Virus record (IMG/VR): IMGVR_UViG_3300042387_000948
Span: 143,030 to 207,029 of that record
DNA: 64,000 bases
Strand: one strand, 5' to 3'
DNA from: a virus
Positions 14,661-57,100 of this stretch are shown here, piece by piece. The position numbers and the translations under genes are program-made. Under the pieces are notes generated by a model, which did not search any database, had not been told where the DNA came from, and saw only the letters and a program-made list of their open reading frames with translations. How positions within the stretch are numbered: the stretch's first letter is position 1; every line of letters starts with the position of its first letter.

Positions 14661-15947
14661 CTACACTTTTCCATAATCCAAACCCCAACTTGCTTTGATT
14701 GGAAACCCACCCTCTTCAATGATTTCTTTCAAATCCTTAATCTTATTCTTATCCACATTCGTAGGAACATCAAATAGAAACGAGTCATAAGTATATAAAC
14801 TAAATCCGATTCCACTATTTCTAATGTAATCTAATATCTTTTTCATCTTATCAATGTTCATTTCAGTCTCTAAGGCTTGTAGAAGATAGTTAAACACCTT
14901 TTGTGGATTTGAACCCTCTATCCAACTTAGGGGTATTCTACGATATTTGGTTTGTAGGTATCCGTTTTGTTGTGTTTCAATCCATAATCCATCTATGTAA
15001 TCAGCTACTGCGTTTAGATATGGAATTTGACGGAATGTATCATCGATTCCCCCATATAGTAATTGGAATGTAATACCCTTACCCTCATTTACATCACATC
15101 CATATTGTTCGGCTAACCACTCATGCACATTACCATCCGGCATATCAAACTTAATCAACTTACCAATAAGACGGGGGTGGTATGCATTATAATCCATTTG
15201 TAGGAATATCCCATCGGAAACGAAACACTCCCTACTACCATCCGATTTATTGAGAGCGGCATAGTTCACACCACCATGTCGATTTGAAGGTCTACCCGTT
15301 ACCGTAAATGGATTGTATTCCGTAAACACTTTACTATCATCTGTCAAATGTCTAATAGCTTGATTCCATCTATCAGTAAATTTTTTCCTATCGACCCGAA
15401 TCCCATATCCCTCCATTTCTGAAAGTGTGGGTATGAATGTTTGGTTATACCATCGATATGTGTTAGAATCTGAATTATTGGAATAGTATTTAATGAATTG
15501 TGGTTCTATTACTTCCACAATCTTCATTAAAGGAATGGATTGAATTAAGTCATCTCTATACCCTTTATGAGTTAGCGTTGATAATAAAGGATTTAAAGGT
15601 GCCTCATAATCAATAACCTCACCTGTCCTTACAAAGTATTCCGAATCTACATCATATAGATTTACCGAAACATAAAGAGAGTGTAATATTTTTTTCTTTT
15701 GGAATACCCACTTCTTACCATTGGTATTTAGTATCGATTTAACGTCCGATACTTTGATTGTAAGAGCATCTGCGTGTTGAATTGGTAAAACATACAACTC
15801 ATCCAAACATCGTACCAGTATGAGAGAAAGATTAGTATGAAGAGGATGCTTTGAGTTATCAACCCATAGTGGATACCATATAGATACTTCGGTTTCCAGC
15901 TTATCTTTCAACCAATTTACTTCCTCTATGGATTCTATAACTTTCAT
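14661..15947 (-). CDS. Short family A DNA polymerase-like protein
   Basis: This 428-residue protein resembles the palm and fingers of PolA. TVTGRPSNRHGGVNYAALNK (216-234) matches the TGRxSS...NLQNIP region, and QMDYNAYHPRLIG (250-262, D252) is motif A. K290-GITFQLLYGG (290-300) is the O-helix motif B, and YTYDSFLF (385-392, D388) takes the place of motif C. Catalytic aspartates are therefore present, but the thumb and the 3'-5' exonuclease are reduced; the N-terminal 150 residues look like a degenerate exonuclease fold. I chose the ATG at 15947 rather than 15974 because a host-type promoter lies inside the longer reading. The ATG is then four bases after the -7 box. It may be the replicative polymerase or a repair/primer-extension enzyme. 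Confidence 0.75.
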   Translation of the reverse strand: MKVIESIEEVNWLKDKLETEVSIWYPLWVDNSKHPLHTNLSLILVRCLDELYVLPIQHADALTIKVSDVKSILNTNGKKWVFQKKKILHSLYVSVNLYDVDSEYFVRTGEVIDYEAPLNPLLSTLTHKGYRDDLIQSIPLMKIVEVIEPQFIKYYSNNSDSNTYRWYNQTFIPTLSEMEGYGIRVDRKKFTDRWNQAIRHLTDDSKVFTEYNPFTVTGRPSNRHGGVNYAALNKSDGSRECFVSDGIFLQMDYNAYHPRLIGKLIKFDMPDGNVHEWLAEQYGCDVNEGKGITFQLLYGGIDDTFRQIPYLNAVADYIDGLWIETQQNGYLQTKYRRIPLSWIEGSNPQKVFNYLLQALETEMNIDKMKKILDYIRNSGIGFSLYTYDSFLFDVPTNVDKNKIKDLKEIIEEGGFPIKASWGLDYGKV

Positions 15948-15951
15948 TTTA

Positions 15952-15983
15952 CAAAGATACAAAAAAAATCCCACAATTCCAAA
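15952..15983 (-). promoter_or_regulatory. Host-type promoter of the polymerase-like gene
   Basis: Minus-strand TTTG (15983-15980), 20 bases, then TATCTTTG (15959-15952). The ATG at 15947 follows after only TAAA, so the transcript should start at or next to the start codon. The -33 box and spacer lie within the tmRNA terminator hairpin. Confidence 0.75.
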
Positions 15984-15995
15984 TGGAAAAGTGGG
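15961..15995 (-). terminator. Terminator after the tmRNA gene
   Basis: On the minus strand CCCAC...GTGGG, with an inner TTCC...GGAA, forms a hairpin followed by a run of eight Ts. It begins three bases after the tmRNA CCA end. Confidence 0.88.
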
Positions 15996-15997
15996 AG

Positions 15998-16377
15998 TGG
16001 TGGAGATGGCGGGATTCGAACCCGCGTCCAGATAAGTTTCTAATGTAAATCGTTCACAAGTTTAGGATAGTGTTTTATCTTACTAACACTCCAAAAGAAT
16101 TGGGGCCGAATGGTTAATTCAGCAGATTCCACCAATCCATTTTAAGTTTGGATAAACTTAAATGTTCACTTCTTTTTAAATCCCATGAGTGATACGGGAG
16201 CGATTAGGCAGCTACTGCGTAATCGAAAGACTCCATCCATGCCATAGCATCTCCGAAAGTCATTGTAGATAATTCTACGTCTGCACTTATTGTTTGATAG
16301 GTCTTCAAAGGTTTCCATCTAACCTTACTTGCATCAATACAACCAGTCTTCATACCTGTCAAAAGCCGGTCATCCCC
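15998..16377 (-). ncRNA. ssrA: Phage-encoded transfer-messenger RNA (tmRNA)
   Basis: This 380-nt RNA has a complete alanine-type acceptor stem: 5' GGGGATG pairs with 3' CATCTCC, followed by ACCA. It includes the G3-U70 pair that alanyl-tRNA synthetase reads. The T arm (GCGGG, loop TTCGAAT, CCCGC) is perfect and CCA is encoded. The tag frame ends at the TAA at 16206-16204. By analogy with Bacteroides (resume codon GGA after a C) it should resume at GGA, 16254-16252, giving the 16-residue tag GDAMAWMESFDYAVAA. The usual Bacteroidota tag has about nine residues and ends YALAA. tmRNA rescues stalled ribosomes with SmpB and marks products for proteolysis. A host-type promoter lies upstream and a terminator follows. 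Confidence 0.95.
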
Positions 16378-16396: not shown

Positions 16397-16428
16397 CAAA
16401 TATACGATAAATATTTGTAATTTCCAAA
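16397..16428 (-). promoter_or_regulatory. Host-type promoter of the tmRNA gene
   Basis: Minus-strand TTTG (16428-16425), 20 bases, then TATATTTG (16404-16397). The predicted RNA start is about 15 bases before the mature tmRNA end at 16377. The spacer also contains ATATTTATC (16414-16406), a match to the late-type motif. Confidence 0.75.
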
Positions 16429-31442: not shown

Positions 31443-34400
31443 TTACTTACCCAATAATGCCTTTAATTCATTTATTTGTTGTTGTTGTTCTTTTATTGCC
31501 TCAATTAGTAATGCCGTTATTCTTCCATAAGATACCGAATCTGCTTCTCCAGATTTTGTAAAGTTAATAATTTCAGGAACAATATCTGCAACTTCTTCCG
31601 CAATTACACCAATTTCAGTATCATCCGAACCTTTTCTATTGTAAGTTACACCTCTTAATAATAATACTTTATCCAATGATTTATTTAAACTAACTACATT
31701 TTCTTTATATCTAATAGATGATGTTTCTGTCAATGATATACAATTCAGTACATTTAAGTTTGTTGTACCATCCGGGTCACAATAATACCCACTATTATTT
31801 GAATCATAAATTATAGTTGACCAGAATACACCTGAACTTTCGTTCAAGCCATACATTGCTATTTTATACCAAGCACGTTTTGTATTCCAATAAGATGTAT
31901 GCCATAAACCTTGAATAGGTCCACCAACTATTTGGATACCATATCCGTTATTATACCCAGCTACATAGTGATGGGCCTGAACACCTACATAGTGAGATGT
32001 ATCACCAGGAGAGTTTGGAATACCACCCCAAGTATCAATAAATCCAGACCCCCAACCAAATGCAGAAATAAAATCGGTTGTACCCCAACCCATTGTACCT
32101 ACCCAATAGTTAGAATCTCCAGTATAATCGTTTCTTCTAAAGTTACCTTTGGCTGTCAAACCAATTCTCATTTTAGAGTAATCATCAGTTCCTTGCCATC
32201 TAGTAGTACCATTTCCATCAAAATAGAATCCGGTATCACTTCTGTCATAAAATATAGCTGAGCGAATATCTCCCGTATTAATGTATGAACCATCGTTTAC
32301 GGTTAATGGTACGTTAAAGTAAAAATTAGGTCTATCAGTGTACATGTGTGCATGTCCACTATTCGCAGGTCCAAACCAAATATATCCATCATTTGTTCTA
32401 AATCTAACTCCCCATGTACTTTCCCCATCAAATCTACCAGTATTAGTTGATGTACCAAATCTTAGTTGATTAAATATAGATGTAGATAACGGGTCTGCGT
32501 AATATCCAGTATTATCTCTATCATAAAATATTGGTGCTCTCATCGAATCTCTAGCAAACATATTACCAGAAGTATCTATACCACCAACCGTTTGACCTGC
32601 AGCTTCCGAATAAAAATGGAAAGATTCAGTTCCCACTAATTGCGATGTTACTCTTTTACCAACATACCAACCACTACCACTACCACCATTATAACGAACC
32701 ATAGCTTCGTATCCATTTCCTGGATTGATATAAAGGTATTTGTTTGATGCACCGGTAATAGTTAAATCCCAAAGAACAGATGTTGAACGAGGGTCTGTAT
32801 AATAACCGGTATCGTTACTATCGTAGAATATTGGTGCTCTTAATGAGTTACCACCCGTTGCGTAATTGTTAAATAATACAGTATTGTTTGGATACAACTC
32901 CATATTAGTAACTCTAGTACCAGATGTGTTAGTATTGTAGAAATATATATCCCCAGATGAAGCGAATCTCATATAACCTTGTCCAAACGAAGTATTTAGT
33001 CTACCAAATCCAGAAGGAGAACCACCATCGTTTGTTACGTTATATCCAAATCCAGCTCCTTCCCAACTTACATTAGGTTCAGAACACCACATTTGCAGTT
33101 GTACAATACCAGTACCATTTCCATTATTTGCAGCAGGTAATCTATTAATTATTTGAGAAGTAGCATGTGCTCCACTATTTCTTATACCACCAAATAATTC
33201 GGTAAATGTTGCAGGGTCTACATAATAAGCAGTATTTGCCGAATCATAAAACGCAGTTGCATATAATCCAGTAGCGTTCCAATATCCTAATTCAGCTCTA
33301 TTATAACGATAGAAATGTAATGCTCCTCCAGCTGCACCAGCTTCAGTTTTTCTGCCACCAATACCAGCATATTCTCTAATTGTTCCACCACTATCTTTTA
33401 GTTGGAAATGTAAATTAGAACCTACTGATGTTGCTGAGTTATTGTGATTTGTTCTTGTTAAATGTAATGTACCATATGTACCATCATCACTAAATGAAGT
33501 TCCACCTTTTCTCATATCAAACGCAACAGGTGTCGAATTTGATGTGTGCTCTAATATTACTTCATTTGCATTACTAAAGTTTATTGCATTACCAGCGTTT
33601 GTTAAATTTAATGTAGCAAATGTTGGAGAATCGGTTGTTTGAATATTTTGATTCATTAAATGAACTTCAGTTGCACCAGGACCTGTGTTAATATTACCAG
33701 CTATTGTTAGTGTAGTACCATCAAATGTAAGATTACTTTCAACTGTTGCGTTTGGTGCAGTTCCGTTTAATGTAATTACACCATTATCGGTTGTACCGGT
33801 TAAAGCAAGTACTCCAGACGTACCAGATGTACCAGCGCCAGATGTTCCAGACGTACCAGATGTACCAGCACCAGATGTACCACTACTTCCAGATGAACCA
33901 GATGCGCCGGATGAACCAGATGCGCCGGATGCACCAGAAGTACCACTACTTCCACTACTTCCAGAAGAACCAGATGCGCCGGATGCACCACTACTACCAC
34001 TTGTACCACGTGTACCAGACGTACCTGATGTGCCTGAAGTACCACTTGTACCAGAAGTTCCGGATGAACCAGAAGTTCCGGATGAACCAGAAGTACCACC
34101 AGAACCAGAAGTACCAGCTGCGGCTAACCAAGCTGAACCATTATATCGATATATGTTTGTATCTGAAGTATTGTAATATATTTGTCCAGCTTTTGTACCA
34201 ACAGGATTTGTTGCGAATGCTGGAATTCTCAATGAACCACTTATATCCACCGAACCAGTAAATTCTTGTGTATCATTTGTTGCATCACCAAATTTATTTG
34301 AACCAGATGAGTAAATTAAAGATGATGAAATAAATTGTACTAATATTTGTTGTGCTCGGATTGTACCACCAACAGTTAAGTTACCACTAAGGGTTTCGTT

Positions 34401-37400
34401 TCCAGTAATAGTAGAATTACCCACTAAAGTTTGAGTTCCAATAACATTTAAGTTTTGAACTCTAGTACTACCACTTACATCTAATGCAAATGTTGTTGAT
34501 GGGTTTTGATTTATACCTAAACTACCAGTAATTATTGTATGTGCGGTTGATATTACAGTATTTCTACCACCAATAATATCAACTTTCTTTAAATTAGTAT
34601 TATTTAATAAAGATGTTGGTTGGGTTGCTTGTGCAGTTAGTGTTGTAACTGAACTACCTCTTGTCAAATATACATTAAAAGTTCCGGCAGCACTAGTACA
34701 AGCCTGCACAAACACCCATATTTCAGGATTAGTTGCACTTGCAGTATCACCTACTATAAAACTATTTATAGTTGTATTATTTAATCTACTATATGGATGT
34801 ACAATTATATCAGTTCCCTGATTATATGCCCCCACTATAAAAGTCACTTCACCACCATATCCATTATTATCCCAACTACTTTCAATATAAGTTGATAATG
34901 TTTGTTGACCATAAGTTGTGTATGAATTATGTATTCTTATATAAGCAGCGGGGTCTCCGGGATTTCTAACTAATGTTAATTTTGTATTATAAACATTACC
35001 ACCTCTAATGTACTCACCAGTTATACCTCTGATTATTGTTACATCATTTCGTAATCTAGTAGAACCACTAACATCTAATGTAAATCCACCATTTACAGTT
35101 GAACCAACGGTTAAGTTACCACTAATGGTTTCGTTTCCAGTTACCGCAAGAGTTGTACCATTAAATGTTAAGTTTGCCTCAACACTTGCGTTTGGAGCAG
35201 TTCCGTTTAATGTAATTACACCATTATCAGTTGTACCTGTCAATGAAAGTAAACCAGAAGAACCAGAAGAACCAGATGTACCGCTTGTACCGCTTGTTCC
35301 AGATGAACCACTACTTCCAGAAGAACCACTACTACCGCTTGTTCCGGAAGTACCTCGTGTCCCAGATGTTCCGGATGTTCCAGAAGTACCGCTTGTTCCA
35401 GAAGTTCCAGAAGTACCGCTTGTTCCACTAGCACCAGTTGCTCCAGAAGAACCACTACTTCCAGAAGAACCACTACTTCCAGATGAACCACTACTACCGC
35501 TTGTTCCAGAAGTACCTCGTGTCCCAGATGTTCCAGAAGTTCCAGATGTACCGCTTGTACCACCAGTACCAGCAGTTCCCATTGTACCACTTGAACCAGA
35601 TGTTCCAGAAGTACCAGATGTTCCACTTGTGCCGGAAGTACCACTACTACCGCTTGTTCCAGAAGTACCACTTGTACCCCCACTACCAGATGTTCCGGCT
35701 GCTGCTAACCAAGTTGTACCATTGTATCGATATATGTTTGTATCAGCTGTGTTATAATATATTTGTCCAGCTTTTGTTCCCGTTGGGTTTGATGGATATG
35801 CTGGAATTCTTAATGAACCACTAATATCTACCGAACCAGTGAATTCTTGTGTATCATTTGTTGCATCACCAAATTTGTTACTCCCACTTGCGTATATTAA
35901 TGATGATGAAATATATTGTACTAATATTTGTTGTGCTCTGATTGTACCACCAACCGTTAAGTTGCCACTAAGGGTTTCATTTCCAGTTACCGTTAAAGTA
36001 GTACCATCGAATCTAAGATTAGCCTCCGCAGTTACGTTTGGAGATGCACCATTAAGAGTAATTACACCATTATCGGTTGTACCACTTATAGATAATGCTC
36101 CAGAAGTACCAGATGTTCCGCTTGTACCGCTAGTACCAGATGTACCACTTGTACCCGAAGAACCTCCACTACCAGCAGTTCCGTTTGTTCCACTTGAACC
36201 CGATGAACCACTACTTCCGCTTGAACCACTACTACCAGATGTTCCGCTTGAACCAGATGTTCCAGATGAACCTCCACTTCCTGCAGTTCCGTTTGTTCCA
36301 GAAGAACCAGAAGAACCAGATGAACCAGATGTTCCGCTTGTTCCACTTGTTCCGCGTGTACCAGATGTACCACTTGTTCCAGATGTTCCAGAAGAACCCC
36401 CACTACCAGCAGTTCCACTACCACCACCAGCTCCAGTTACACCACTACTACCACTCGTTCCAGATGTTCCAGATGTTCCACTTGAACCAGTAGTTCCAGA
36501 AGAACCACTACTACCTGATGAACCCGAAGTACCTACAGTTCCAGAAGAACCAGAAGTACCTGATGTACCCGAAGTACCAGCAGTTCCCGAAGAACCACTA
36601 CTACCAGATGAACCACTACTACCAGATGAACCACCAGCTCCAGTTATACCACTTGTACCGGAAGTACCAGATGTTCCACTTGTACCAGATGTTCCAGAAG
36701 TTGCGGATGTACCACTCGTTCCAGAAGAGCCAGTTGTACCAGATGAACCAGTTGTTCCACCACTACCAGATGTACCAGATGAACCAGTAGTACCACTACT
36801 ACCACTTGAACCAGAAGTTCCAGAAGTACCTCCACTACCAGATGTACCAGAAGAACCAGATGAACCAGATGAACCAGATGAACCAGATGTACCACCACTA
36901 CCAGCAGTTCCTCTTGTACCACTACTACCGCTTGTTCCAGAAGTACCAGAAGTACCAGAAGTTCCGCTTGTTCCAGAAGAACCCCCACTACCAGATGTAC
37001 CACCACTACCAGACGAACCATCCGTACCAGATGAACCAGATGAACCAGATGAACCACCACTACCGCTTGTACCACCACTACCGCTTGTACCAGATGAACC
37101 ACCACTACCGCTTGTTCCAGATGTTCCAGAAGTACCAGAAGTACCAGATGATGCAGCTGCAGTTCTTCTACCAACCACACCAGTAGTTGTATTAAGTACT
37201 AAGAATTCTTGCGTTGTATTATCGGTAGTTACATTGGTATTATCAAATCTAACACTACCAGAAACTGCTAAACTACCACTTATACCTAACGAACCTGTTA
37301 TTTCTTGTTTATCGTTACTTGCATCACCAAATTTGTTTGAACCAGATGAAAAAATAATTGATGATGATATATAAGTTACTTTTAATTCAGTTGCGTTTAT

Positions 37401-38171
37401 TGTACCACCAACACTTAAATTTCCAGTTATTGTTTCATTACCAGTGATGGTTTGATTTCCAATCACACTTGAATTACCCACTAAAGTTTGAGAACCAGTT
37501 ATTCTTAGTGCACCAGATATAAAAGTTGAACCACTTATATCAAATTGAGTTGTTGGTGTTTTTCTTATACCAACATTTCCACCACCATTTGCTAAAATTA
37601 CATTAGATGTTGATGCCCTATTAAGATATAAATCTACATTTGTTGAATCTATTCTACCATTAGATGGTGTAATTGCAATTGTTCTACCATTAGTAGTTGC
37701 GGTTATTGAAATTGAAGTATCGGGTGCGTTTACATTAATACCACCACTAACTATGTTTAAATTTCCACCATTTATGTTTTCACTACCACTAATATTTAAT
37801 GAACCACTTATCGTTGTATTTGTATTTACAACTAATCCTAAATTTGGTGAAATTACTGCTTGTGCTGAACCTGATTTAATTCTATCCAAATCACCAATTG
37901 AAGATGCATTGATATTCGTTAAACCACTACCATTTCCTGTAAATAATGATGCCGATACTGAACCACTAAATTGTGAATTTGCATTTATTTGTAATGTTGC
38001 TCCGTTTGGAGTCCCAATTTGATAAGTTTGTACGGCCGAACCACTTAGTTTACCAACAACACTTACCGATTCTGAAGTAGCAGTTAAAATAGATGAACCA
38101 CTTACAAAAAGTGATACACTATTTACACTATTTTGATTTAACCCATTGGGACTTTTACCGTTGAACTCCAT
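31443..38171 (-). CDS. Giant tail fibre with collagen-like stalks and C-terminal S74 chaperone
   Basis: This 2242-residue fibre has an N-terminal part of short beta repeats ([19 protein letters not shown]). Three Gly-Thr/Ser-Ser collagen-like stretches follow (about 340-690, 825-975, 1350-1455), separated by copies of a cassette containing [21 protein letters not shown] and [23 protein letters not shown]. A head-like region then carries five IFYDxxDTGYYxDP repeats. The end (from about 2151) is the S74 intramolecular chaperone: S2151-S-I-R2154-Y-K2156, [15 protein letters not shown], then a helix ([20 protein letters not shown]). In this family the chaperone trimerises the fibre and cuts itself off before the Ser. 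The protein should be a host-recognition fibre. Confidence 0.9.
33808..34120 (-). repeat. Collagen-like Gly-Thr/Ser-Ser coding repeat (third stalk)
   Basis: About 105 codons of near-uninterrupted Gly-X-Y triplets, mostly GTS, GSS and GAS, within the 2242-residue fibre. Proline is absent. Confidence 0.9.
34125..34411 (-). repeat. Fibre cassette, copy 2
   Basis: About 287 bases nearly identical to 35699-35985. It encodes the WLAAAG end, the IYRYNG motif, the [21 protein letters not shown] block and the start of the next scaffold module. Confidence 0.85.
35250..35698 (-). repeat. Collagen-like Gly-Thr/Ser-Ser coding repeat (second stalk)
   Basis: About 150 codons of Gly-X-Y triplets in the 2242-residue fibre, dominated by GTS and GSS. 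Confidence 0.9.
35699..35985 (-). repeat. Fibre cassette, copy 1
   Basis: Direct repeat of 34125-34411, with mostly synonymous differences visible by eye. It encodes the same IYRYNG/YISSS/NKFGDA module. Confidence 0.85.
36092..37150 (-). repeat. Collagen-like Gly-Thr/Ser-Ser coding repeat (first stalk)
   Basis: About 350 codons of Gly-X-Y triplets, with GSG, GSS and GTS the most frequent, in the 2242-residue fibre. The DNA is a degenerate nine-base repeat, so both strands are open in several frames. Confidence 0.9.
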
Positions 38172-40258: not shown

Positions 40259-43200
40259 TTAATTCATGTTTAATCCGGTCACAAATCCATAATAAGATGA
40301 GCCCCCATCAAATGTGTAAAATACTAATATATCCTCACCAGATGAAGTTAAAATTGGAGGTGTACCACCTACCCAATTTACACCACTCCAAGCTAATGAA
40401 TGTGCTCCTGCGTTTACTGCTAATAATGTAAATCCAAATGCTTTTCCAGCAGGTGCATTTGAGAATGATATTGAACCATTTCCAGTAAAAGTTCTCTTAA
40501 AGTTGTTAGCAGTTGATAAATCAATTGATGCACCACTACCACTTCCTAAATCAGAGAAAGTTTCTCTGAAAGTTGTTGATGTTGTAAATCCAGTTGTAGA
40601 TAAACTAGTTGATAGATTTACACCATTTGTTGCAATTATGTTTAAAGATGTGGGTGAAGTCAAATTAGGAGTTCCACCGGTATAAATGTTAAATGCTGAT
40701 GCGGATACGGGTCCAGTTGCTTGAATTGTACCAGTTACAGTTAATGTACTACCATCAAAAGTTAAATTACTTTCAACCCGTCCATTTGGTGCAGTACCAT
40801 CTAATGTGATAACACCATTATCAGTAGTTCCTGTCAATGCTAAGAAACCACTTAAACCAGACGAACCAGATGTTCCAGCTCCAGATGTACCCGATGTTCC
40901 AGAAGTTCCAGATGAACCAAAATTTGTTCCATCTAATCCAGATGAACCAGAAGTTCCAGATGTACCATTTGTACCTTCACCAGATGTTCCAGACGTTCCA
41001 GACGTTCCTGATGTACCACTACTACCAAATAAAGTTCCATCTAAACCAGATGTACCAGACGTTCCCGATGTACCATCTGTTCCAGTTGAACCAGATGTAC
41101 CAGACGTTCCTGATGTACCACTTGTACCAGACGAACCAAAGAATGTTCCATCTAAACCAGAAGTCCCAGAAGTTCCAGAAGTTCCAGATGTGCCATCTGT
41201 CCCAGATGTACCCGAAGTACCACTTGTTCCAGATGTTCCAGACGAACCAAAATATGTACCATCTAAACCAGATGTGCCAGAAGTTCCAGATGTGCCAGAA
41301 GTTCCATCAGTAGCATCAATTCCAGATGTTCCAGATGTACCACTTGTTCCAGAAGTTCCAAAGAAAGTTCCGTCTTGTCCACTTGTACCAGATGTACCCG
41401 ATGTACCAGAAGTTCCATTGGTAGCATCTAAACCAGATGTTCCAGATGTACCAGATGTACCATTTGTTCCAAAAAAAGTTCCATCTTGTCCACTTGTACC
41501 AGATGTACCACTCGTTCCGCTTGTACCATCGGTCCCAACACCAGATGAACCAGAAGTTCCGCTTGTACCAGATGAACCAAAGAATGTACCATCTACACCA
41601 CTTGTACCAGATGTACCACTTTCGCCACTTGTACCAGATGAACCGCTTTCTCCACTTGTACCAGATGAACCGCTTTCTCCACTTGTACCAGATGAGCCAA
41701 AGAATGTTCCATTTAAACCAGAAGTACCGCTTGTACCAGATATACCATCAGTACCACTAACACCAGATGAACCAGAAGTACCGCTTTCTCCACTTGTACC
41801 AGATGAACCAAAGAATGTTCCATCTAAACCAGAAGTACCGCTTGTACCCGATGTACCAGAAGTTCCATCAGTCCCAGAAATACCGTTTGTACCACTTTCT
41901 CCACTTGTCCCACTTGTTCCAGATGAGCCAAACAATGTTCCATCTAAACCAGAAGTACCAGAAGTCCCAGAAGTTCCAGATGTACCATCGGTCCCAGATG
42001 TACCAGAAGTTCCATCAGTACCAGAAGTTCCATCAGTACCGCTAGTACCAGATGTACCACTTTCACCACTTGTTCCGCTTGTTCCAGATGTACCACTTGT
42101 GCCTGAAGTACCAGATGTACCACTTGTGCCTGAAGTACCAGATGAACCAAATAAAGTTCCATCTAATCCACTTGTTCCAGATGTACCAGATGTTCCATCG
42201 GTACCCGAAGTACCAGAAGTTCCATCAATACCGCTTGTACCAGATGTACCTGATATACCTGAAGTACCGCTTGTACCCGAAGTACCAGATGTTCCATCAG
42301 TTCCAGAAGTTCCGCTTGTTCCAGAACTACCATCACTACCACTTGTACCAGATGTTCCGCTTGTACCAGATGAACCTTCAGCCGATGTACCACTACTACC
42401 ACTTGTACCAGATGTTCCATCACTACCACTTGTACCATTTGTACCACTTGTCCCACTTGTACCATCACTTCCAGAAGTTCCGCTTGTTCCGCTTGTTCCA
42501 GAAGTACCACTTGTACCTGATGTACCATCAGTTCCGCTTGTACCCGATGTACCATCAGTTCCGCTTGTACCCGATGTACCATCGATTCCCGAAGTTCCAG
42601 AAGTTCCGCTTGTACCAGATGAACCGCTTGTACCAGATGTACCATCAGTTCCGCTTGTACCAGATGTACCATCCGTACCGCTTGTACCAGATGTACCGCT
42701 TGTACCAGATGTACCATCAGTCCCAACACCAGAAGTTCCAGATGAACCGGAAGTACCATCAGTTCCAGAAGTTCCACTTGTCCCATCTGTTCCAGAAGTA
42801 CCGCTTGTACCAGATGTACCATCCGAACCAGTTGTACCACTACTTCCGCTTGTACCAGATGTACCATCAGTTCCGCTTGTACCAGAAGTACCGCTTGTAC
42901 CAGATGTACCGCTTGTACCAGATGTACCATCCGAACCAGTTGTACCACTACTACCAGAAGTACCGCTTGTTCCATCGGTTCCTGAAGTACCAGAAGTACC
43001 GCTTGTACCGCTTGTACCAGATGTACCGCTTGTACCAGATGTACCGCTTGTACCAGAAGTACCGCTTGTACCAGAAGTACCATTTAACCCAGAAGTTCCC
43101 GATGTACCACTTGTTCCGCTTGTTCCACTTATACCACTTGTTCCAGAAGTACCAGAAGTTCCAGAAGTACCATTTGTACCAGAAGTACCAGAAGTACCAG

Positions 43201-46200
43201 AAGTACCAGATAAACCACCGGAACCAGATGTGCCCGATGTACCAGATGTGCCAGAAGTTCCATCAGAACCATCAGCTCCATCACTACCAGATGTTCCACT
43301 TGTACCAGAAGTACCCCCACTACCTGCACTACCATCTATTCCATCCGAACCTTTTGCTCCAGATGTTCCGCTTGTTCCTGATGAACCAGACGTACCAGAT
43401 GTTCCCGATGTACCATTTAATCCGTTTACACCAGAAGTACCCGAAGTACCAGAAGAACCAGATGTTCCACCACTACCAGCAGTACCAGCAGTTCCATTTG
43501 TACCACTTGTACCGCTTGTTCCACTTGTACCACGTGTGCCACTACTTCCACTTGTTCCAGATGTTGCGGATGTACCTGATGTTCCACTAGTACCAGATGT
43601 TCCGCTTGTACCAGCAGTTCCAGATGTTCCAGATGTTCCCCCACTTCCAGATGTACCAGAAGTTCCAGAAGTTCCAGATGTTCCAGATGTTCCATCCGAA
43701 CCAGTTGTACCACTACTACCGCTTGTTCCAGAAGTACCGTCCGAACCAGTTGTACCACTACTACCGCTTGTTCCAGAAGTTCCAGAAGTTCCGCTTGTAC
43801 CAGATGAACCACTTGAACCGCTACTACCAGATGAACCTGATGAACCACTTGTTCCAGATGTTCCAGATGTTCCAGATGTTCCCGAAGTACCATCAATTCC
43901 ACTTGTTCCCGAAGTACCGCTTGTACCAGATGTTCCGCTTGTTCCAGAAGTACCATCCGTACCATTTGTACCAGAAGTACCAGAAGTACCAGAAGTACCA
44001 GAAGTACCGGCTGCCTGCTGAACATCTCTTGTTTCTAATTTTTTAGTAGTAGGGTCCCAAGTTACAACCAATTGAGAGGCTGATGATGTATAAAATTGTT
44101 GTATATATACACTACCAGTAATATCTAAACTACCAGTTATTACCAAACTACCACTAAATCTTTGATTACCTGAATTTAGTAAGAATGATGATGTATCTAT
44201 ACTTTGTGCATTTAATGCAAATTGTGCAATACTTGCAAATGATGAACTAAATACTGTCATCGATGCAGTTTGTGCATTTGTAATAAATCCTTCCGCAGAT
44301 AATACCCCACCTAATACATGAGATGCGGTTAGTGCGTAAGATGCGGAAACTGCTAATGAAGCAGTACCAACCAACATTGATGCGGTTTGTGCATTTTGTA
44401 CAAAGTTAGCAGTATCAACATTTGATGCGTTTTGTGCAAATAATGCGTAAGAAGCAGTTCTAGCAAACGATGCACTTAATACTGTCATCGATGCGGTTTG
44501 TGAATTTAACACAAATTCACCAGCATTTACCGATGCTGATATTAATGCTTCTAAAGATGCCGTATTTAATCCTATTACACTGCCAGCTATGGTTGCAAAA
44601 TTAGCGTTTACCGCATGTGATGAGGAAAGTACCGTTCCAATTACTCTATCCGCCTGAATTGTACCATTTATTAACGAACCACCACTACCAATTACGATAT
44701 GTCCACTTGTCAATCCACTAAATGTTACTTGAACAGTGTTATTATCGATTGCTAAAATAGATGCAGGAAGAATCATTTCATCTTGCGAACCAGTTCCATA
44801 CACCTGTACCATTGGGTATCTAATATCCAAATTATGTACAATCGTTACCGAACTTGCGTTACTAAATGGTACAGTCTCCGTTAATGAAGTTTCGGGTTGA
44901 GGAATATAGTATCCCCTATTCTCATCATATCTTAAAGTATTGTATTCCGCAGATGCTTCGATACCAGCTCCATTAAATGTATATGTACCATTAAATGAAC
45001 CACTAAAGAATGGAGAATATGCAAAACTTGCGGTTAATTCAGGCGTTGTTATAAAATCAGAATAAGTTCTACCATAGATACTTGCCGATGTATTAACAAC
45101 AAAACCATTATCAGGTGAAATCGATGCCGTAAATGAGCCCGATTTCATTATAAATGTTTCAAATGATAGATTTGCAATGTTGATATTATTCAAACCACTA
45201 CCATCTCCAACAAATCTACTACCACTTTGAACAATAATTGAACCACTTTGAACAATAATTGAACCAGTTACATGCAACGAACCACTTTCAATTGAAGTAT
45301 CGGTATTTATTTCCAATCCTCTGTTTGGAGATATGACAGCTTCAACAGAACCCGATTGAATTCTATCTAATTGAAGGTCTTGTAATGATTCAGCAGGAAT
45401 GTTAAATAACCCACCACCATCTCCAGCAAAAAATGATGCAGTTACCGTTACGTTTACATTTAATTTTTGTGGGTCTAATATAGCTAAAGCAGAGCCGGAA
45501 ACTAGTCTATCCAATTCTAGATTTGTCAATGCTTCAGCTGGAATGTTAAATAGTCCACCACCATCTCCTCTATAAAATGATGCCGATATCGAACCACTTA
45601 ATAATGTACTACCACTAACAACTAAACTAGAACTAAAGTTTGCATTTCTTTGAATTGTTAAAGGTACATTTGATATCAGTCCATTATTTGGTGATATTGA
45701 TGCGGTTGCACTACCACTAGCAATACGAGGTGCATCTCCGGAAATTTCAGCAATTACACCGGTCAATTGAGAACCATCTCCAAAATAAGTTGTTGCTCTT
45801 ACTGAACCACTTACTACAACACTTCCACTAAATGTAGAACCACTTGCTACTGAAGTTACTAAAAATCCAGTATTAGGTGAAACCGAAGCAGTTACCGAAC
45901 CACTTTGAATTCTTGGTGATGCCGCTGCTACTACATTTTGTAATTGAGAACCATCTCCAATAAATGTAAATGCAGCTACCGAACCACTTACAACAGTACT
46001 TCCACTAAGAATTATACCATAACCACTAACTTCCGAACCACTATAATCATTTGATATTACTTTGAATCCATATGCAGGGTCTACTGAAGCAGTTACCGAA
46101 CCTGATGCTATTAATGTTGCTACCAATGCATCAGGTGTTAAAGCTGAACGAGGGATATCAAATAAACCAGCACCACTACCACTAAATACCGATGCAGTTA

Positions 46201-49200
46201 CTACACCAACAACTTTAGTATCACCAACTAATTTTATTTCCGATGGGATATAGATGGCATCTACTACATTAATAGTACCAGCCATTGCAACATTATTCTC
46301 ATTATTGTAATAAAGAGTATCAGGTGCACTACTTGAAACTAAGAACGATATAGTTCCGTTATCTTCACCATTATTAGTTACCCAACTATCATATCCGTTT
46401 TGATTACCAATTGCACTAGCACTATTAATCCAAAATGAATATCCTACCGCATCTACGTTAAAAATATAAGAATTACCTCTTACTAATGTTAAATTTACAT
46501 TTGAACCACTAGCTGCTCCACTAAACCAATATGCAGAACTTCCATCGTTTACTACATCAAATGTATTTGGTAATTCATCCAATGGAGTAGGTCTAGCCGA
46601 TGATGAAACTACAAAACTACCACTAATGGTAGTAAATGTGTTTACAACCAATCCTTTATTTGGTGAAATCGATGCCGTAGCTGAACCACTTGTTATTTTA
46701 TTAGAAATTAGTGCATCAATAGTTAAAGCAGAACGAGGAATATCTGATAATCCGGCCCCACTACCACTAAAAAATCCACTACCGCTTGGTATTGTTATCG
46801 AACCACTTACCGAAATACTACCACTAAAAATTGAACCACTTACTATTGAAGTTACTAATAAACCAGTATTGGGTGCTACTGAAGCAGTTACACTACCACT
46901 AGCAATACGGAATACTTCACTTGCTAATGCTGATTGAGGTATATCAAATAATCCTCTACCACTACCACTAAACATTGATGCGGAAACAGGAAATTCGAAT
47001 GTTGAAAATGTATTAACTACAAATCCATCAACAGGTGAAATAGATGCAGTTGCCGTACCACTAAATATCTTTGTTGAATCAATTGCTAAGTTGGCAAGAG
47101 TAATATTAGAAAGATATCTACCATCTCCAATAAAATATGAAGAACTAGGTACATATAAATTACCACTTACAATAGTATCCCCTATAAATTTAATAGTAGG
47201 GTCAATTTGATATTTTTCTTTTATAATAATTGTACCTGCCATTGAACTATGGAATTGACAATTATAATATAAAATATTAGGAGAACCAGTTGGTGGTGTA
47301 AATGTTATTGTGGCATTTGAAGCTCCATTATTTACTACACCAATATCATATGTATCTAAAGTTCCAGTTGTTTTAGTGGTCTTTATCCAAAAAGGGTGAC
47401 CTGTTGCTGCAATATTAAATGTATATGGTACATTTTGATATAAAACTAAAGTAGGATTTGAACCACTAGCCGCTCCACTAAATACATATTCTCCACTACC
47501 AGCATTTACCACATTAAATGTAGTATCTAATGAAGATGTTGATAATTCCCAACCAGATGATGATACTATTAAACTACCACTAATTGTTGTAATTGCGTTT
47601 ATACCAAATCCAGTCAATGGGTCAGCTGATGCAGTTACACTACCACTTGCTACTCTATATGCTTCGGTTGCTAATGCAGATTGTGGAATATCAAATAATC
47701 CTTTACCACTTCCACTAAAAATGGATGCAGATACAGTATTTGTAAAGAATGCAGGTACATTTACATTAAATCCTTCCGATGGTGAGATTGATGCCGTAGC
47801 ACTTCCACTAAATATCTTTGTTGAATCAATTGCTAAGTTAGCAAGTGTTATGTTTGAAAGGAATCTACCATCTCCAATGAAAAATGAACTACTATTAATA
47901 GTTACACTACCACTTACATCAACGCTTCCACTTATTTTAGTTCCGTTTTCAACCGATTCTACAACAAATCCTCTATCAGGTATTGCGGATGCGGTTACTG
48001 AACCAGATGCTATTCTAAATACTTCTTGTGATAATGCCGATAATGGTAAATCAAATAAACCAGCACCACTACCAGTAAACATAGATGCCGATACCGTATA
48101 TTCAAAATTAGCAGGTACATTTACTATAAATCCGTCAACAGGAGATATAGATGCGGTTGCTGAACCACTTGCTATTTTATTAATTTCAAATGCTAAAGCT
48201 GATTGTGGTATTTCAAACAATCCTTTACCACTACCACTAAAGAATGAACCAGTTGTTATTTGAATACCACCACTTACAAATAAACTTCCACTAAATGTTG
48301 AACCACTTACTACCGAAGTTACTACAAAACCAGTATTTGGTGCTACCGAAGCAGTTACCGAACCTGATTTAATTTCAGTTGATACTAAAGCATCTACCGA
48401 TAATGCCGAACGAGGTATGTCTTTTAAACCAGCACCACTACCACTAAAGAATGAACCAGTTTCAACCTGTATATTACCACTAACAATTAAACTTCCACTA
48501 AATGTACTACCACTTGCTACTGAAGTTACTACAAATCCTTTATTTGGACTAACGGAAGCAATCACACTACCACTTTCTATTAAAGTTGCGGTTAATGCCG
48601 GTATATTAAACAATTGAGAACCATCTCCAATAAAAAATGATGATGATACACTACCACTAACAACCACATTCCCAATAAATGTAGAACCACTTTCTAAAGA
48701 TGTTACAACAAATCCACCATCAGGTGACACCGATGCTGTCACAGAACCAGATTTAATTTCAGTTGTTAGTAAAGCATCAAATGTTAATGCTGAACGAGGT
48801 ATATCGGTTAAACCAGCACCACTACCACTAAAAAATCCACTACCGGTGGGTATTACTATATTTCCACTAACAATTAAGCTTCCGCTAAATGTAGAACCAC
48901 TATCTATTGAAGTTACTAAAAATCCGGTATCAGGTGAAACCGAAGCAGTTACTGAACCTGATTTTATTTCGGTTGATATTAATGCATCCTGTGTTAATGC
49001 TGAACGAGGTATATCAAACAATCTAGCTCCACTACCACTAAATGATGAACCAGAACTTAATTCAATTCCACCACTTACAAATAATGAACCAGTAAATTGA
49101 GAACCACTTTCTAATGATTGAACCACAAATCCCGTATCAGGACTTACCGATGCAGTTACACTACCACTTGCAATTCTACTAGCATCACCAGATAGATTTG

Positions 49201-50227
49201 AAATAGGAATATCAAATAATCCTCTACCACTACCACTAAACATTGATGCTGATACTGAATATTCAAAGAATGCGGGTACATTTACCAACAATCCAGTACT
49301 ATCTTGAATTGATGCAGTTGCCGAACCACTAGCAATTCTATTCGAAGTTAATGCATCCGGTGTTAAAGCAGAACGAGGTATGTCAAATAAACCAGCACCA
49401 CTACCAGTAAACATTGATGCAGATACCGAATATTCAAAATTAGCAAATGTGTTTACTACCAAACCAGTATTTGGTGCAATTGAAGCAGTTGTAGAACCAC
49501 TTGCTATTAAAGTTGCGGTTAATGCTGGTATATTTGTTAGTCCACTACCATCTCCAAAAAATGAACCACTAAATGAACCAGTAAATGAACCAGTTGCAAT
49601 TACACTTCCTATAAATGAACCACTAAATGAACCAGTTGCACTATTTACCGTTAAAATATCTCTAATTCCAACCGAACCTGTTAGTTGTTGGTTATCAAAC
49701 CCACTATCTCCAAATATGTTAGAACCTGATGAATAAATTATTGATGATGATATATACGTTACTATAAGAGATTCCGCATATATTGATTTTGATACATATA
49801 AATTACCTTCAATTGATGTATTACCTTGAATTATTGCATTAGTATTTACAACTAATGAAGTACCATCAAATGATGCAGTTTGCGAACCACTTGCAATAAA
49901 TGGTGCAACTACGGATGGTACGTTTACTAAACCACTACCATCTCCTACAAAATTTCCTAAAAATGAACCACTAAATGAACCAGAAAGGTCAGCAATACCT
50001 TTAAATGAAGATGTTATTTCATTTAATACAATTTTTTGTGCAAATCCTCTATTACCCTCACTATCCGTAATTAAAATAGCCGGATTGGATTCTAAAGATG
50101 CCGAAAATGAAGGAACACCAAAGTTTGGTTCAACTTGGGATAAATCTACAAATTCGTATCTATCTGATGTTACATTTTTAGGTCCTTTTAATCGAACTCT
50201 ACCACTTAATAGGTTGCTTATTGCCAT
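40259..50227 (-). CDS. Giant fibre (3322 residues) with cupredoxin-like domains and long collagen-like stalk
   Basis: The N-terminus ([26 protein letters not shown]) leads into about twenty imperfect units of some 75 residues, with the pattern [18 protein letters not shown]...[13 protein letters not shown]...FxGDGSGL/[16 protein letters not shown]. Two cupredoxin-like inserts interrupt this region, at about 893-1006 and 1210-1324; only the first keeps H944, C990, H993 and M996. Residues about 2073-3126 are Gly-Thr-Ser collagen-like triplets with periodic GxDGTxFG breaks. The last 190 residues ([14 protein letters not shown]..., [30 protein letters not shown]...) form a beta-rich tip. No S74 chaperone is present. 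Two late-type motifs precede it. It is probably a long adhesion fibre. Confidence 0.85.
40846..44010 (-). repeat. Long collagen-like Gly-Thr-Ser coding repeat
   Basis: About 1050 codons of Gly-X-Y, chiefly GTS. Eleven GxDGTxFG-type interruptions are confined to the C-terminal part of the stalk (plus-strand 40.9-42.2 kb). The DNA is a degenerate nine-base repeat that leaves the opposite strand open. Confidence 0.92.
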
Positions 50228-51189: not shown

Positions 51190-54100
51190 TTAAATTTGTA
51201 GTGCCAATGAGAACGGAGTTACTAATGAGAACAATGATTTACTAAATGTTCTACCAACCAAAGTTCCAGTAGCTTGATTGATACTTAAACCAGTACCAAT
51301 TCTAAAGTCACCATCCTGATTTCCAGAGGTAAAGAATATTCTACCACCACCTAATTCAGTAATTTCAAATATTGGATTTGGAACACCACTACCACCCTGA
51401 TTTGGGGGAAGTGCTTTAAATGTAACACCACTACCATTGTAAGAGTAGTCAATACCAGTTGCCACAATTAGTGAACCAAATGATTCCAAAGGTGCACCTG
51501 CTGCTATAAACTCTGCTCTAGTTCTTAAATATCTATTTGTTTCCAAAGTTTCCAATAATTGGTCTCTAGTCACAGCTATTGCACTTCCATATTGACCATC
51601 ATAGTATGATGATGCTGCTCTGATTCCTCTTTCGTTTCCACCATATAATAAATCAGTTACAGCCGCATCTACAATAAATCCAGTATCACGCGAACAACTT
51701 GCCTCATTATATACTAAATATGGAAAAGCTCCATTTGTGTATCCAATTGCTCTTTGTTTTAATTCTTCTTTACCACCTTTTAATCTTTCAGCTGCTTGTC
51801 TTCTTAATGTAGTTGGTGCTAAGTAAGTTAATAGCGTATTTGCTACTATTTTTTCAGAAAGTCCTCTTGCGAAGTTTATACCATCTACCGTTTGTTTTTT
51901 CTGTCCGTTATTATCACCATAACTTTCCAAAATTGCTACTGATGGGAATTTATAGTAGTAAGAACCTGCCTCAATACTTCTTTCATTACCACCATAAACT
52001 AAATCCGTTCTAATTGCATCTATAATAAATCCTAAATCTCTAGAACAACTCACTTCATTGTATTTTAAACCACTCCAAGATGCAGATAAGAACGTTATAG
52101 TTTCTTTTTGTATTAATTGTTTGTTATCTGTCAATAATTTTGCGGTTGTCAATAATGATGCCGATGGTACTAAATATGTTGGGTTAGTTATTACCTTTTT
52201 AGATACCCTTCCGGCATATCTGATACCAGTAAGTGTTGGGTCTGATTGATTTTGTGTAGATGGAACTCCCTTATTAGTTGCATTCGATGGATATAAGTAA
52301 TAATACTGCCCAGCTATCACACTTCTTTCAGTTCCACCATATAATACATCCGTTGCTGCCGCATCTATTAAGTATCCAACATCTCTTTTACAAGTTGCTT
52401 CGTTATAATATACACTACTCCAAGAAGAAGATACATATGCGATAGTTTCTTCTGCTATAAATGCTTTATTCTTTCTTAATAAATCAAATGATGCAGATGC
52501 CTCTAATGAAGCTGTTACAAATGTAGTACCACTTACAATTTTTTGTGCTATTCTACTTGCGTAATTTATACCATCAATTGTTTGTCCTAATTGTCCTACA
52601 CCATCACCATCTCCCAATAAGATTGCTTTTGATGGATATTTGTAATAGAAATCACCAGCTACTACACTTCTTTCGTTTCCTCCGTATAATAAATCAGTAG
52701 TTGCTGCATCTAATATGTATCCTAAATCTCTAGCACATTTTATCTTATCATATTCAAAATTACTCCAACTTGCAGTTAAGTAAGCCATACTTTCACTTAC
52801 AATAAATGTTCTATTGTTTCTTAATAATGCTACGGATGATGAAACAACCAATGAAGCAGTATTGAATGAAAGATTTTGAACTAATTTAGTTGCTAAACCT
52901 TTTGCGTAATCAATTGCGGTTACAGTTGGGTCTAATTGAGAACCAGTTACTTTTGATGGAGCCTCCCAATATGCAATTCCAGCTAAAGAACTACTATGAT
53001 TTCCACCATAAAGAATATCACCAGCTACTGCCTCAACAATATATCTAATATCTCTAGAACAAGTTGTTGAATTGTACTCAAATCCACTCCAAGAAGATGA
53101 TAAGAATGATATACTCTCACTTTGGATAAATCCTATGTTTTGAGTTAATAAATCGTATGCAGCAATCTTTGATAAATCGTTTGATGGAGTTAAACCAGTA
53201 GATTGAGATACAGGTGTAGGTATCAACCAATTGTTTATAGAAGCAGATACTAATCTAGCTGCGTATTTGATTCCATCTATTGTTTCAGTTAATTGAGTAT
53301 CAGTAGCCTCCGATGGATATAAGTAATAGAACTCACCAGCTTTAGAACTTCTCTCATTTCCACCATATAATAAATCAGTTGAAACTGCATCTAAGATATA
53401 TCCAACATCTCTCTTACAAGTTTCTTCATTGTAATAGAAATCAGGGTATTTAGCGTTTATATATGCAACACTTTCACTTTGGATAAACTTCTTATTACTT
53501 CTGATTGAATCATATGCAATTGATGAAGTTACATAGAATTGTGCATTCTTAATTACATTCAATGCCAATCCTTTTGCATATCTAACACCAGTTAAAGTTG
53601 GTTCTAATTGAGAATCGGTAGCTTGAGATGGGAAATCATAATAATATTTTCCAGCTATAATACTTCTTTCATTTCCACCATATAATAAATCAGTTCTTAC
53701 CGCATCTACTATGTATCCAATATCTCTAGCACACTTAATTTCATCATATCCAAACTCACTCCAAGAAGAACTTACATAAGCTATACTTTCACTTTGAATA
53801 AATCCTTTATTTTTAGTTAGTGCTACATAAGATGCCGAAATAGTTGCTGATGCTGATATGTGAGTTAATACAATATTTTGTACAACCTTCTCAGCCACAC
53901 CACTTGCGTATTTGATTGCGGTAATTGTTTGGTCTAATTGTGAACCGGTAGCCTGTGATGGGAAATCAAAATAGAACTTACCATTAAACAACGATGCCGA
54001 ATTACCACCATATAAAAGGTCAAATGCAGAACCACTAAGGATTCCTGTCAAATCTCTCTCACACTTACTTTGAGTATATGCAAATCCACTCCAAGATGAA

Positions 54101-57100
54101 CTCATATAAGCAATAGTTTCATCAACTATGAATTTAGAGTTACTTACTAATAGATTATATGCCGAATTTATTTTTGTATTTGTATTTGCTATTGGGAATG
54201 TTGATGGTCTAAATCCAATTGAGCTTGTACCATTGTTCAATAACACATCAATTACTAAAGATAAGGATGCTGATATTAATTTACCTTGCAATCTTGCTCC
54301 ACCACTTCCACTTATAATTTGTGGTGTGTTGGTTATCTTAATACTTGCCGATGTATTTGATACAATTGTTGGAAGTAACGATGTTCCATTTTCTACAATA
54401 TCCAAAACAATTCCAAAACCAGATGATACTTTATTTATTTCAAATTGCCCAGCAGTTTGTGTATTTGCAGTTGGTAGTAATCCCGTCTTTGTAATTGAAC
54501 CACTGGCATTTGTTACCAATGTAGGAATTGAACCAGTACCATTTGCAATTATATTAACTACAGTTCCAAATGAAGAACTTACAACATTTGTTTCGGTTGG
54601 ATATGTTCCAATTCCAATTATTTGAGAATCTGAACTAATATTCCATAAGTTTGGATTATTTAGATTAAATCCATATAACGATGGAAAATTAGAAACTAAT
54701 GAATCAGGTAAAGATGATGAACCATTCTCAATAATATCAGTAATCAAATTAAATGAAGCAGTAATTAAACCAATTTCACTACCACTAGCTGAATTAGATG
54801 CTGTGATTGGAAAAATGTTATTTACTTTTATTCTACTTTCAACATTTGATACAATTGATGGTTTTACTTCAACACCACCCTCAATAATTTTAGTTACAAT
54901 ACTAAATGATGAAGAAACATTTGTTACTTCAGTAGAACTTCCACTATTGGCAGATGTTAATTGAATTACATCAGATACTTTTATGTTACCATCCGTATTT
55001 TTACCAAAATTAATTGTATCTAATGTAATATTTGATACTAATTTGTTCACTAAACTATTTGCATAATCTATTGAATCTATTGTTTGTCCTTTTTGCTCTA
55101 CCGAAGTTGCTTTTGATGGGAATTTGTAATAATATACACCAGATTCCACACTACGTTCGTTTCCACCATAAACAATATCAGTTGCTACACTATCTACAAT
55201 AAATCCAACATCTCTACTACAAGAAGCTTGGTTATATACCAAATTAGGATAAAATGCGTTAGTGTATTGAATAGTTTCTGTTTGGATAAACTCTCTATTT
55301 GCTTGTACTAAATTTCTTACATTTAATTTTTCGTTTGAAGCAGTTACAAATGTATTACCTAATACAATTTTTTGAGCCAAACCACTACCATACTTAATAC
55401 CAGTAATTGTTGGGTCTAATTGATTTGTTACAGAAGGAACACCACCAACAGTTGCTGCCGATGGATATAAGTAATAGAATCTACCGGCAGTTATTGTTCT
55501 TTCGTTACCACCATATACCAAATCGGTTCTTACTGCATCAATAATATATTTTACATCTCTCTTACATTTAATCTCATCATATTGAACACCTCTCCAAGAA
55601 GAACTTACATAAGCAACCACTTCTTCAGAAATTAAATTTTTATTTAACGATAATAAATTACTAGCATTTGTTTTGTTTTGTGAAGCAGTTACAAAAGTAG
55701 TACCAACAACAACTTTTTGTGTTATTCTACTTGCGTAATCGATACCATCAATTGTTTGTATTAATTGAGAACCAGTTGCTTGGGATGGGTATAAATAATA
55801 AAATGCACCAGCCGTTACACTTCTCTCATTTCCACCATATACTAAATCCGTTCTTACTGCATCAATTACGTGTCCAATATCTCTCTTACACTTAACATCA
55901 TTATAATCAAAATTACCCCACGAAGATGATAAGTAAGCAATAGTTTCACTTTGAATAAATTCTCTATTGTTTTTTAATTGTAATGATGCATTTTGTACTT
56001 CGGTATTTGCAAAAGAATAAACTATATTTTGTAAAGTTTTTTGTGCTAATTTACTAGCATACTTTATACCATCTACAGTTTGATTTAATTGAGAACCAGT
56101 TGCTGCTGATGGATATTCTAAATAGTATTTTCCATTTACTAATGATGCTGAATATGAATTATATAATAAATCTTCCGCTGCTCCATTTACAATTAAACCA
56201 ATATCTCTACTACAACTTACATCATTAAATACAAACCCATTCCAAGAAGAAGATAGATAAGCAATAGTTTCTGCCTGAATAAATGGAATGTTTTGTTTTA
56301 ATAAATTATATGCATAATATACAACTATATTATTAGATGCGGATACATATGATGATGTTGGTAATAATAATGATGATGTTACTCCACTATTTCCACTTAA
56401 AATATCAACTACCAATGATATTGATGCTGATATTAAAGTTGCTTCAGCAGATGTACCACTAAATGATGATGAAATGTATTGTGGTGTATTCGTTACTTTA
56501 ATACTTTGTGATGTATTTAGGGTAATTGTAGGAACTACACCTAACCCATTTTTAATAATATTTTTAATTGTTTCAACCGATGAACTAATTGCAGTTGCTT
56601 GTGTTTGAGTTGCATTACTACCAGTCCATTGAGTTACATTTGTAACTTTAATACTTTGTGATGTATTTGATTGAAATGTAGGTATTGAACCTGTTCCATT
56701 TTGTACAATGTTTATAATTGTACCAATAGAAGAACTAATTAAATTAGCTTCTGCTTGAGTTGCGGATGAGGCGGTTGTTAAAGTTAAACCACTTACAATA
56801 ATCAAATCAGATTGAGATGAAGTTATAGCAGGTGATGTTGAACTTCCACTTTGAATAATTGAAGTAATTATATCAAATTTAGTATTAATTGAAGATGTTA
56901 AATTAGCAGAAGATGTTGTTGATGTTATTTGAACACCATTTGTAATATTTAATGGATTTGTATTACTCCAATTTTGTCCATTATTTTGTGCTAAAATTGA
57001 AGGTATTACCGAAATACCTCTTTTTACAATTGATTCTATTATAGTAAACGAACTACTAACATAATTTTGTTGAGTCACACTTCCACTAAAAGATGATGTT

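Follow-up and report, generated by a model that had tools for sequence, protein, structure and literature searches.

A phage tmRNA gene with a long peptide tag conserved among related viruses

The DNA analysed here (the window) is a 64,000-nucleotide stretch that makes up the final 64 kb of a 207-kb IMG/VR virus record. The virus has T4-like myovirus genes, encoding a tail sheath, a UvsX-like recombinase, a DnaB-like helicase, ribonucleotide reductase, a single-strand binding protein and an endolysin. Three giant open reading frames lie on the minus strand of the window, at 40259-50227 (3322 aa), 51190-60393 (3067 aa) and 31443-38171 (2242 aa). The only RNA gene found in the window by ARAGORN was a tmRNA gene on the minus strand. 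No tRNA genes were predicted there; 25 are clustered elsewhere in the same record (G000:C1:70704-76445, equivalent to L535:10704-16445), and cover nearly all amino acids. The tmRNA gene is flanked upstream by a gene for a 117-aa protein without a family match, and downstream by a DNA-polymerase-like gene. The 437-aa product of the latter matches the C-terminal part of the much longer phrog_17, so the polymerase may be split between genes. The features of the locus are as follows.

14661..15974, minus strand: DNA-polymerase-like gene, 437 aa (PHROG 17, E=4e-13), downstream of the tmRNA
15960..15997, minus strand: intrinsic terminator, CCCAC..GTGGG followed by T8 (fold z = -5.3), with equivalents in relatives
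15998..16377, minus strand: one-piece tmRNA (ssrA) gene, 380 nt, CCA encoded (ARAGORN, Rfam RF00023, compensatory changes)
16204..16284, minus strand: tag reading frame, from GCA (16284-16282) to TAA (16206-16204), predicted to encode ADVELSTMTFGDAMAWMESFDYAVAA, 26 aa
16252..16254, minus strand: GGA, codon 11 of the tag (Gly), gene nt 124, taken as the resume codon in a preliminary description
16284..16293, minus strand: AATAAGT and the GCA resume codon; A at -4 is window position 16288 (gene nt 90)
16296..16326, minus strand: likely pseudoknot 1, AAGGUU/AACCUU and GAUGG/CCUAUC (sequence reading by eye and Rfam alignment)
16397..16428, minus strand: Bacteroidota-type promoter, TTTG-N20-TATATTTG, 51-20 nt upstream of the tmRNA

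The Rfam tmRNA model RF00023 (gathering score 47) matched the same interval as ARAGORN, 15998-16377, with 99.6 bits and E=1e-37, over its full length (model positions 1-374). The preliminary description, made from the letters of the window, had placed a tmRNA at exactly this position without giving its strand. It had also named the G3-U70 pair in the acceptor stem, a perfect T arm and an encoded CCA, and all three were seen in the Rfam alignment and the sequence. Comparison of 42 distinct tmRNAs from the phage group described below showed that G3-U70 is invariant (42/42). Acceptor pairs 5 and 6 and T-stem pairs 1-3 vary by compensatory change only: acceptor pair 5 is A-U, G-C or U-A, pair 6 is U-A or C-G, and T-stem pair 2 is found as four pair types. 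All acceptor and T-stem pairs are standard in all 42 members, and not one position is unpaired. Pseudoknot 1 could be drawn by eye and probably ends 11 nt before the resume codon; the remaining pseudoknot regions aligned to the Rfam model with low posterior probability. The interval 15998-16377 is a real tmRNA gene.

A promoter and a terminator had also been proposed for this gene, and both were recovered. The upstream motif TTTG-N20-TATATTTG resembles TTTG-N20-TAnnTTTG, which we take to be the Bacteroidota promoter consensus. It is kept in close relatives, and roughly half of the distinct family members have it too. Simple scans for sigma-70 promoters and for terminators around the tmRNA were uninformative; the terminator at 15960..15997 was missed by the simple scanner because its stem has an internal loop. 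The phage tmRNA is most likely a working, self-contained transcription unit, whose charging and activity would be expected from these sequence features.

Both ARAGORN and the Rfam alignment take GCA (gene nt 94, window position 16284) as the resume codon; it is preceded by T at -5 and A at -4. Experiments in E. coli showed that A86 of its tmRNA, four nucleotides ahead of the resume codon, chiefly sets the frame (PMC2481249). Bacteroidota tmRNAs taken from genomes had A at -4 in 75/75 and T at -5 in 72/75. Their resume codon lay at gene nt 94-99; these 75 had been picked by a short-tag pattern and serve here solely to locate the resume codon. All listed phage relatives likewise have A at -4. 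Since GCA has A at -4 and a host-like position in the gene, and since the two tools agree, we read the tag as ADVELSTMTFGDAMAWMESFDYAVAA, 26 residues long. Stretches of peptide predicted from this frame include STMTFGDAMAWMESFDYAVAA and ADVELSTMTF.

The preliminary description had instead started the tag at GGA, aligned to a "Bacteroides resume codon", and so obtained 16 residues, GDAMAWMESFDYAVAA. GGA does resemble the GGC at which GENNYALAA-type tags of Bacteroidota begin, but in those tmRNAs GGC is found at gene nt 94-99, and the phage codon at that place is GCA. At window position 16254 (gene nt 124), GGA is preceded by C at -5 and T at -4, and is 30 nt too far downstream. The codon aligned with it is GAA or GAT (Glu or Asp) in 27 of 28 distinct tag sequences, and the codons upstream of it evolve as coding sequence (see below). 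A tag starting at GGA is thus scarcely credible, and the boundaries drawn for an "insert AMAWMESFD" are wrong, as the frame begins further upstream, at GCA. The ending YAVAA holds in the frame read from GCA. A covariance-model scan had been suggested as a check on the tag; RF00023 matched, and the resume codon that it placed elsewhere lengthens the tag rather than removing it. A small independent open reading frame starting at an internal ATG (codon 8 of the tag) was considered and rejected, because relatives have TGG or TTC in place of this codon.

To collect relatives without any use of the tag, we fetched loci through the neighbouring polymerase-like protein, which gave 75 viral loci at 59-100% identity. 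Five of these begin inside the gene and have no upstream DNA; in the other 70, with the neighbouring gene and upstream DNA, a tmRNA was found at the same place in 69. ARAGORN predicted 62 of them, nhmmer added five more at full length, and two are partial at contig ends. The exception, L308, is the only relative with upstream DNA in which no tmRNA was found; its tmRNA site holds an open reading frame (L308:4300-5010) that resembles ParB on inspection by eye.

Among the listed loci read with the A(-4) rule, the tags are 23-26 residues long wherever the frame is complete, with T-A at -5/-4. The frame chosen by ARAGORN was wrong in about a dozen of the 62 relatives, for which the A(-4) rule again gives 23-26 residues. 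In L276-L280, L291, L309, L310, L312, L332 and L333 the program reported a false short tag at gene nt 202-211, far downstream of the long tag, which sits where it does in the other relatives. A survey of tag lengths based on ARAGORN only would therefore overlook such cases. In one alignment the row for L309 had wrong coordinates and was left out. Two of the five tmRNAs found by nhmmer only were read, and both tags have 24 residues, DEMSTMTFDSMMEFIGASEYAYAA. Nine close copies (the window and L004-L011) have an identical tag, and other parts of their tmRNAs vary. Another scan, which looked for tmRNA 3' ends in viral contigs, added the members L143, L152, L200, L239 and L241, and a scan for the tag motif found at least 120 contigs. 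In all, versions of the long tag are present in well over a hundred related viral contigs. The preliminary description was therefore right that the tag is unusually long and phage-specific, as one of a family with 23-26 residues, and the case for this is stronger than it claimed; its resume codon and its length of 16 are wrong.

The consensus of the family is (A)D-V-E-L-S-T-(M/W/F)-T-F-(E/D)-D-(A/L/V)-M-(A/S)-F-V-G-A-D-Y-A-V-A-A. Most relatives' tags start at GAC, and that of the window at GCA. Among the 84 distinct tag DNAs listed, 60 end in VAA, 19 in LAA, three in IAA and two in YAA when sorted on the residue third from the end; a single one of these tags ends in SA. Differences in tag length within the family alignment are whole codons only. 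Ser and Met residues in the extension are invariant, and invariant or near-invariant residues are found at the C terminus as well.

Selection on the tag was measured in the set that had been fetched without the tag, which contains 28 distinct tag DNAs and 22 peptides. The pN/pS of the tag frame was 0.41 and that of the other frames 1.67 and 1.78; among 300 column shuffles, no value was as low as 0.41. The segment upstream of GGA alone gave 0.42, compared with 2.2 and 1.95 in the other frames, with 3/300 shuffles as low. A larger set, of 84 distinct tag DNAs and 49 peptides among the matches listed, was in part selected by motif, and gave pN/pS values of 0.29 for the whole tag and 0.44 for the segment upstream of GGA (0/200 shuffles as low). 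As the larger set was partly found by its motif, only sets not fetched in this way bear cleanly on selection. The tag DNA evolves as protein-coding sequence. Together, the coding-type pN/pS, the changes of length by whole codons and the GAA or GAT at the GGA site indicate that the coding unit is the whole 26-residue frame. Versions of the long tag occur across related viral contigs, and selection therefore preserves it.

A phylum-wide search found tmRNA above the cut-off in 278/297 Bacteroidota genomes. Tags were extracted from 48 of these tmRNAs, namely the 30 best-scoring together with hand-chosen lower-ranked ones, a sample that is not strictly random and was not selected on the tag. All had 8-10 residues (GENNYALAA, DNNYSYRLAA and the like), compared with 26 in the phage. 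In other respects the Bacteroidota ssrA RNAs (RF00023) are like that of the phage: they are one-piece, with G3-U70, T-A at -5/-4 and the resume codon at gene nt 94-99, and their tags also end in Y/L-A-x-A-A. The last residues differ in that host tags end in LAA, MAA or similar, whereas those of the phage family end in VAA more often than in LAA.

The host of the phage is likely to be a member of the Bacteroidota, on the strength of the promoter type, the tmRNA 3' end and a distant cultured relative. The 3' end is closest to tmRNAs of Bacteroidota, from which nearly all of those compared were drawn. The polymerase-like gene was seen in few cultured phages, one of which is Flavobacterium phage immuto. 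Microcystis phage Mel-JY01 is a match too, with higher sheath identity, so that we infer this host rather than assign it.

SmpB was not found in the virus record (G000) or in four related phage records, and neither ClpP nor Lon was found in the phage records tested. All three proteins were present in the bacterial control, one sampled Bacteroidota genome. ClpP-like proteins were seen in two phage relatives, PP395634.1 (L337, L410) and LR756508.1 (L411); PP395634.1 has no tmRNA above the cut-off. The preliminary description had suggested that a phage-specific tag could change the choice of host protease or divert the rescue system of the host. For phages without SmpB, ClpP and Lon, any such effect would have to rely on machinery of the host or on a phage protein that has escaped recognition.

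We consider that the best explanation, with a probability of about 0.62, is a working phage tmRNA in which the extension of the tag acts as a second recognition element for a host protease (Lon-like) or an adaptor. Ribosomes that stall on truncated mRNAs during infection would be rescued by the phage tmRNA with the help of host SmpB and host alanyl-tRNA synthetase. Translation would resume at GCA (16284), and the 26-residue tag would be added to the stalled chain after the charged alanine. The C-terminal -YAVAA would probably still be read by host ClpXP. The N-terminal extension, D-V-E-L-S-T-(M/W/F)-T-F-(E/D)-D-x-M-(A/S)-F-V-G-A-D, is both hydrophobic and acidic, and would most likely be recognised in addition by a host protease such as Lon, or by an adaptor, so that tagged chains would be handled differently or faster than those with the host's tag of 8-10 residues. 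Lon recognises hydrophobic stretches. For this reason, and because the only extended tags that have been studied, those of mycoplasmas, are tied to Lon, Lon is our first choice, and a phage adaptor would be the main alternative.

On a broader reading, a widespread group of T4-like phages, which probably infect Bacteroidota, has re-engineered trans-translation: the short tag of the host gives way to one of 23-26 residues, conserved at the protein level, by which stalled chains in infected cells would go to another protease, adaptor or fate. We advance this tentatively, at somewhat less than an even chance. If it is true, viruses rewrite the label on stalled proteins and do not only supply more rescue RNA, and the concrete question that it raises is what reads ELSTxTFEDxMxF. 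That unrelated phages evolved other long tags independently forms part of the same reading and is put forward just as cautiously. Several unrelated long tags were found among 96 viral tmRNAs predicted by ARAGORN from 119 loci, which makes tag length across all phage tmRNAs worth a look. Those with A at -4 are 27 aa (L226), 28 aa (L259), 24 aa (L179 and L191) and 21 aa (L245 and L157); L540 likewise has a tag of 27 aa. L226 has one identical copy among the viral contigs, where no relatives of the L259 tag were found. This diversity suggests more than one origin of long tags in phages. In LR756508, a distant relative of 484 kb, a frame resuming at GGC after TATAACT (L339:1501-1947, equivalent to LR756508.1:92434-92880) would give a 36-residue tag, GVNNADYESAGFTAEDFAQMDGESLYHGSERKPAAV; ARAGORN picks another frame. 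The same record has a second match to the tmRNA model, at 414804-414915.

The extension might instead be a private address, bound through ELSTxTFEDxMxF by an adaptor or modifier of the phage, so that tagged chains would be stabilised, sequestered or re-routed and not degraded faster. The tag is conserved at the protein level within the phage group and is absent from the Bacteroidota tmRNAs sampled, and its invariant or near-invariant residues are found both in the extension and at the C terminus, in keeping with such an address. Against it, the degron-like -YAVAA end is kept, and no adjoining gene stands out, the 117-aa upstream gene being without a family match. We know of no phage adaptor for a tmRNA tag, and think this explanation unlikely. 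The extension itself gave no Pfam match. A resemblance of the motif starting MTFGDAM to DUF2829-type phage proteins was dropped, as there was no Pfam match even at E=5. The idea that the tag copies a phage protein was rejected, since no match was found elsewhere among the open reading frames of the genome; no phage protein ends like the tag.

It could also be that the extension is neutral, if long tags are tolerated, only the -AA end matters, and the phage needs ribosome rescue and not the tag. In favour of this, long tags of unrelated sequence occur in several other phage tmRNAs, and the tmRNA of E. coli remains functional when its tag template is replaced (PMC2481249). Neutrality sits poorly with a pN/pS of about 0.4 across the tag, the invariant Ser and Met and the in-frame changes of length, and we regard it as rather improbable. 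A decayed or non-functional tmRNA, left by integration or acquired with host DNA, has next to nothing in its favour: mobile elements are known to integrate at tmRNA genes (PMC11590407), but here the tRNA-like domain is intact with compensatory changes, promoter-like and terminator elements are conserved, and the tag is under selection in the phage group.

To our knowledge, almost all bacteria use short trans-translation tags. Phage-borne tmRNAs as such are familiar from mycobacteriophages Bxz1 and Wildcat, Bacillus phage G and methylophage Melnitz; two papers report tmRNA in ten phages (PMC4131195) and in 402 of 18,146 phage genomes (PMC9004378). The open-licence PMC papers on those phage tmRNAs, in the parts available, do not describe a family of long conserved tags, and a search of the open-licence PMC literature found no account of phage tmRNAs with long tags. 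As the literature searched comprised open-licence papers only, this absence is weak evidence of novelty. Searches of 50,697 phage records with the tmRNA of the window (blastn) and with the consensus tag (tblastn) gave 0 matches.

The one well-studied exception with long tags is that of the mycoplasmas, whose tmRNA tags have about 26-27 residues. These extended tags were reportedly described by Gur and Sauer in 2008 and by Ge and Karzai in 2009. The phage tag resembles them in its length of more than 20 residues and in its additional hydrophobic positions ahead of the C terminus, but it ends in YAVAA and not in AFA. Mycoplasma tags end in AFA and serve hosts without ClpXP (PMC3985003), and their connection with Lon is a precedent for a switch of protease (cited in PMC3985003 and PMC11986505). 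The mycoplasma exception reflects a protease switch, whereas the hosts of these phages appear to have standard proteases. The phage tag keeps its -AA end, and the sampled bacterial genome has both ClpP and Lon.
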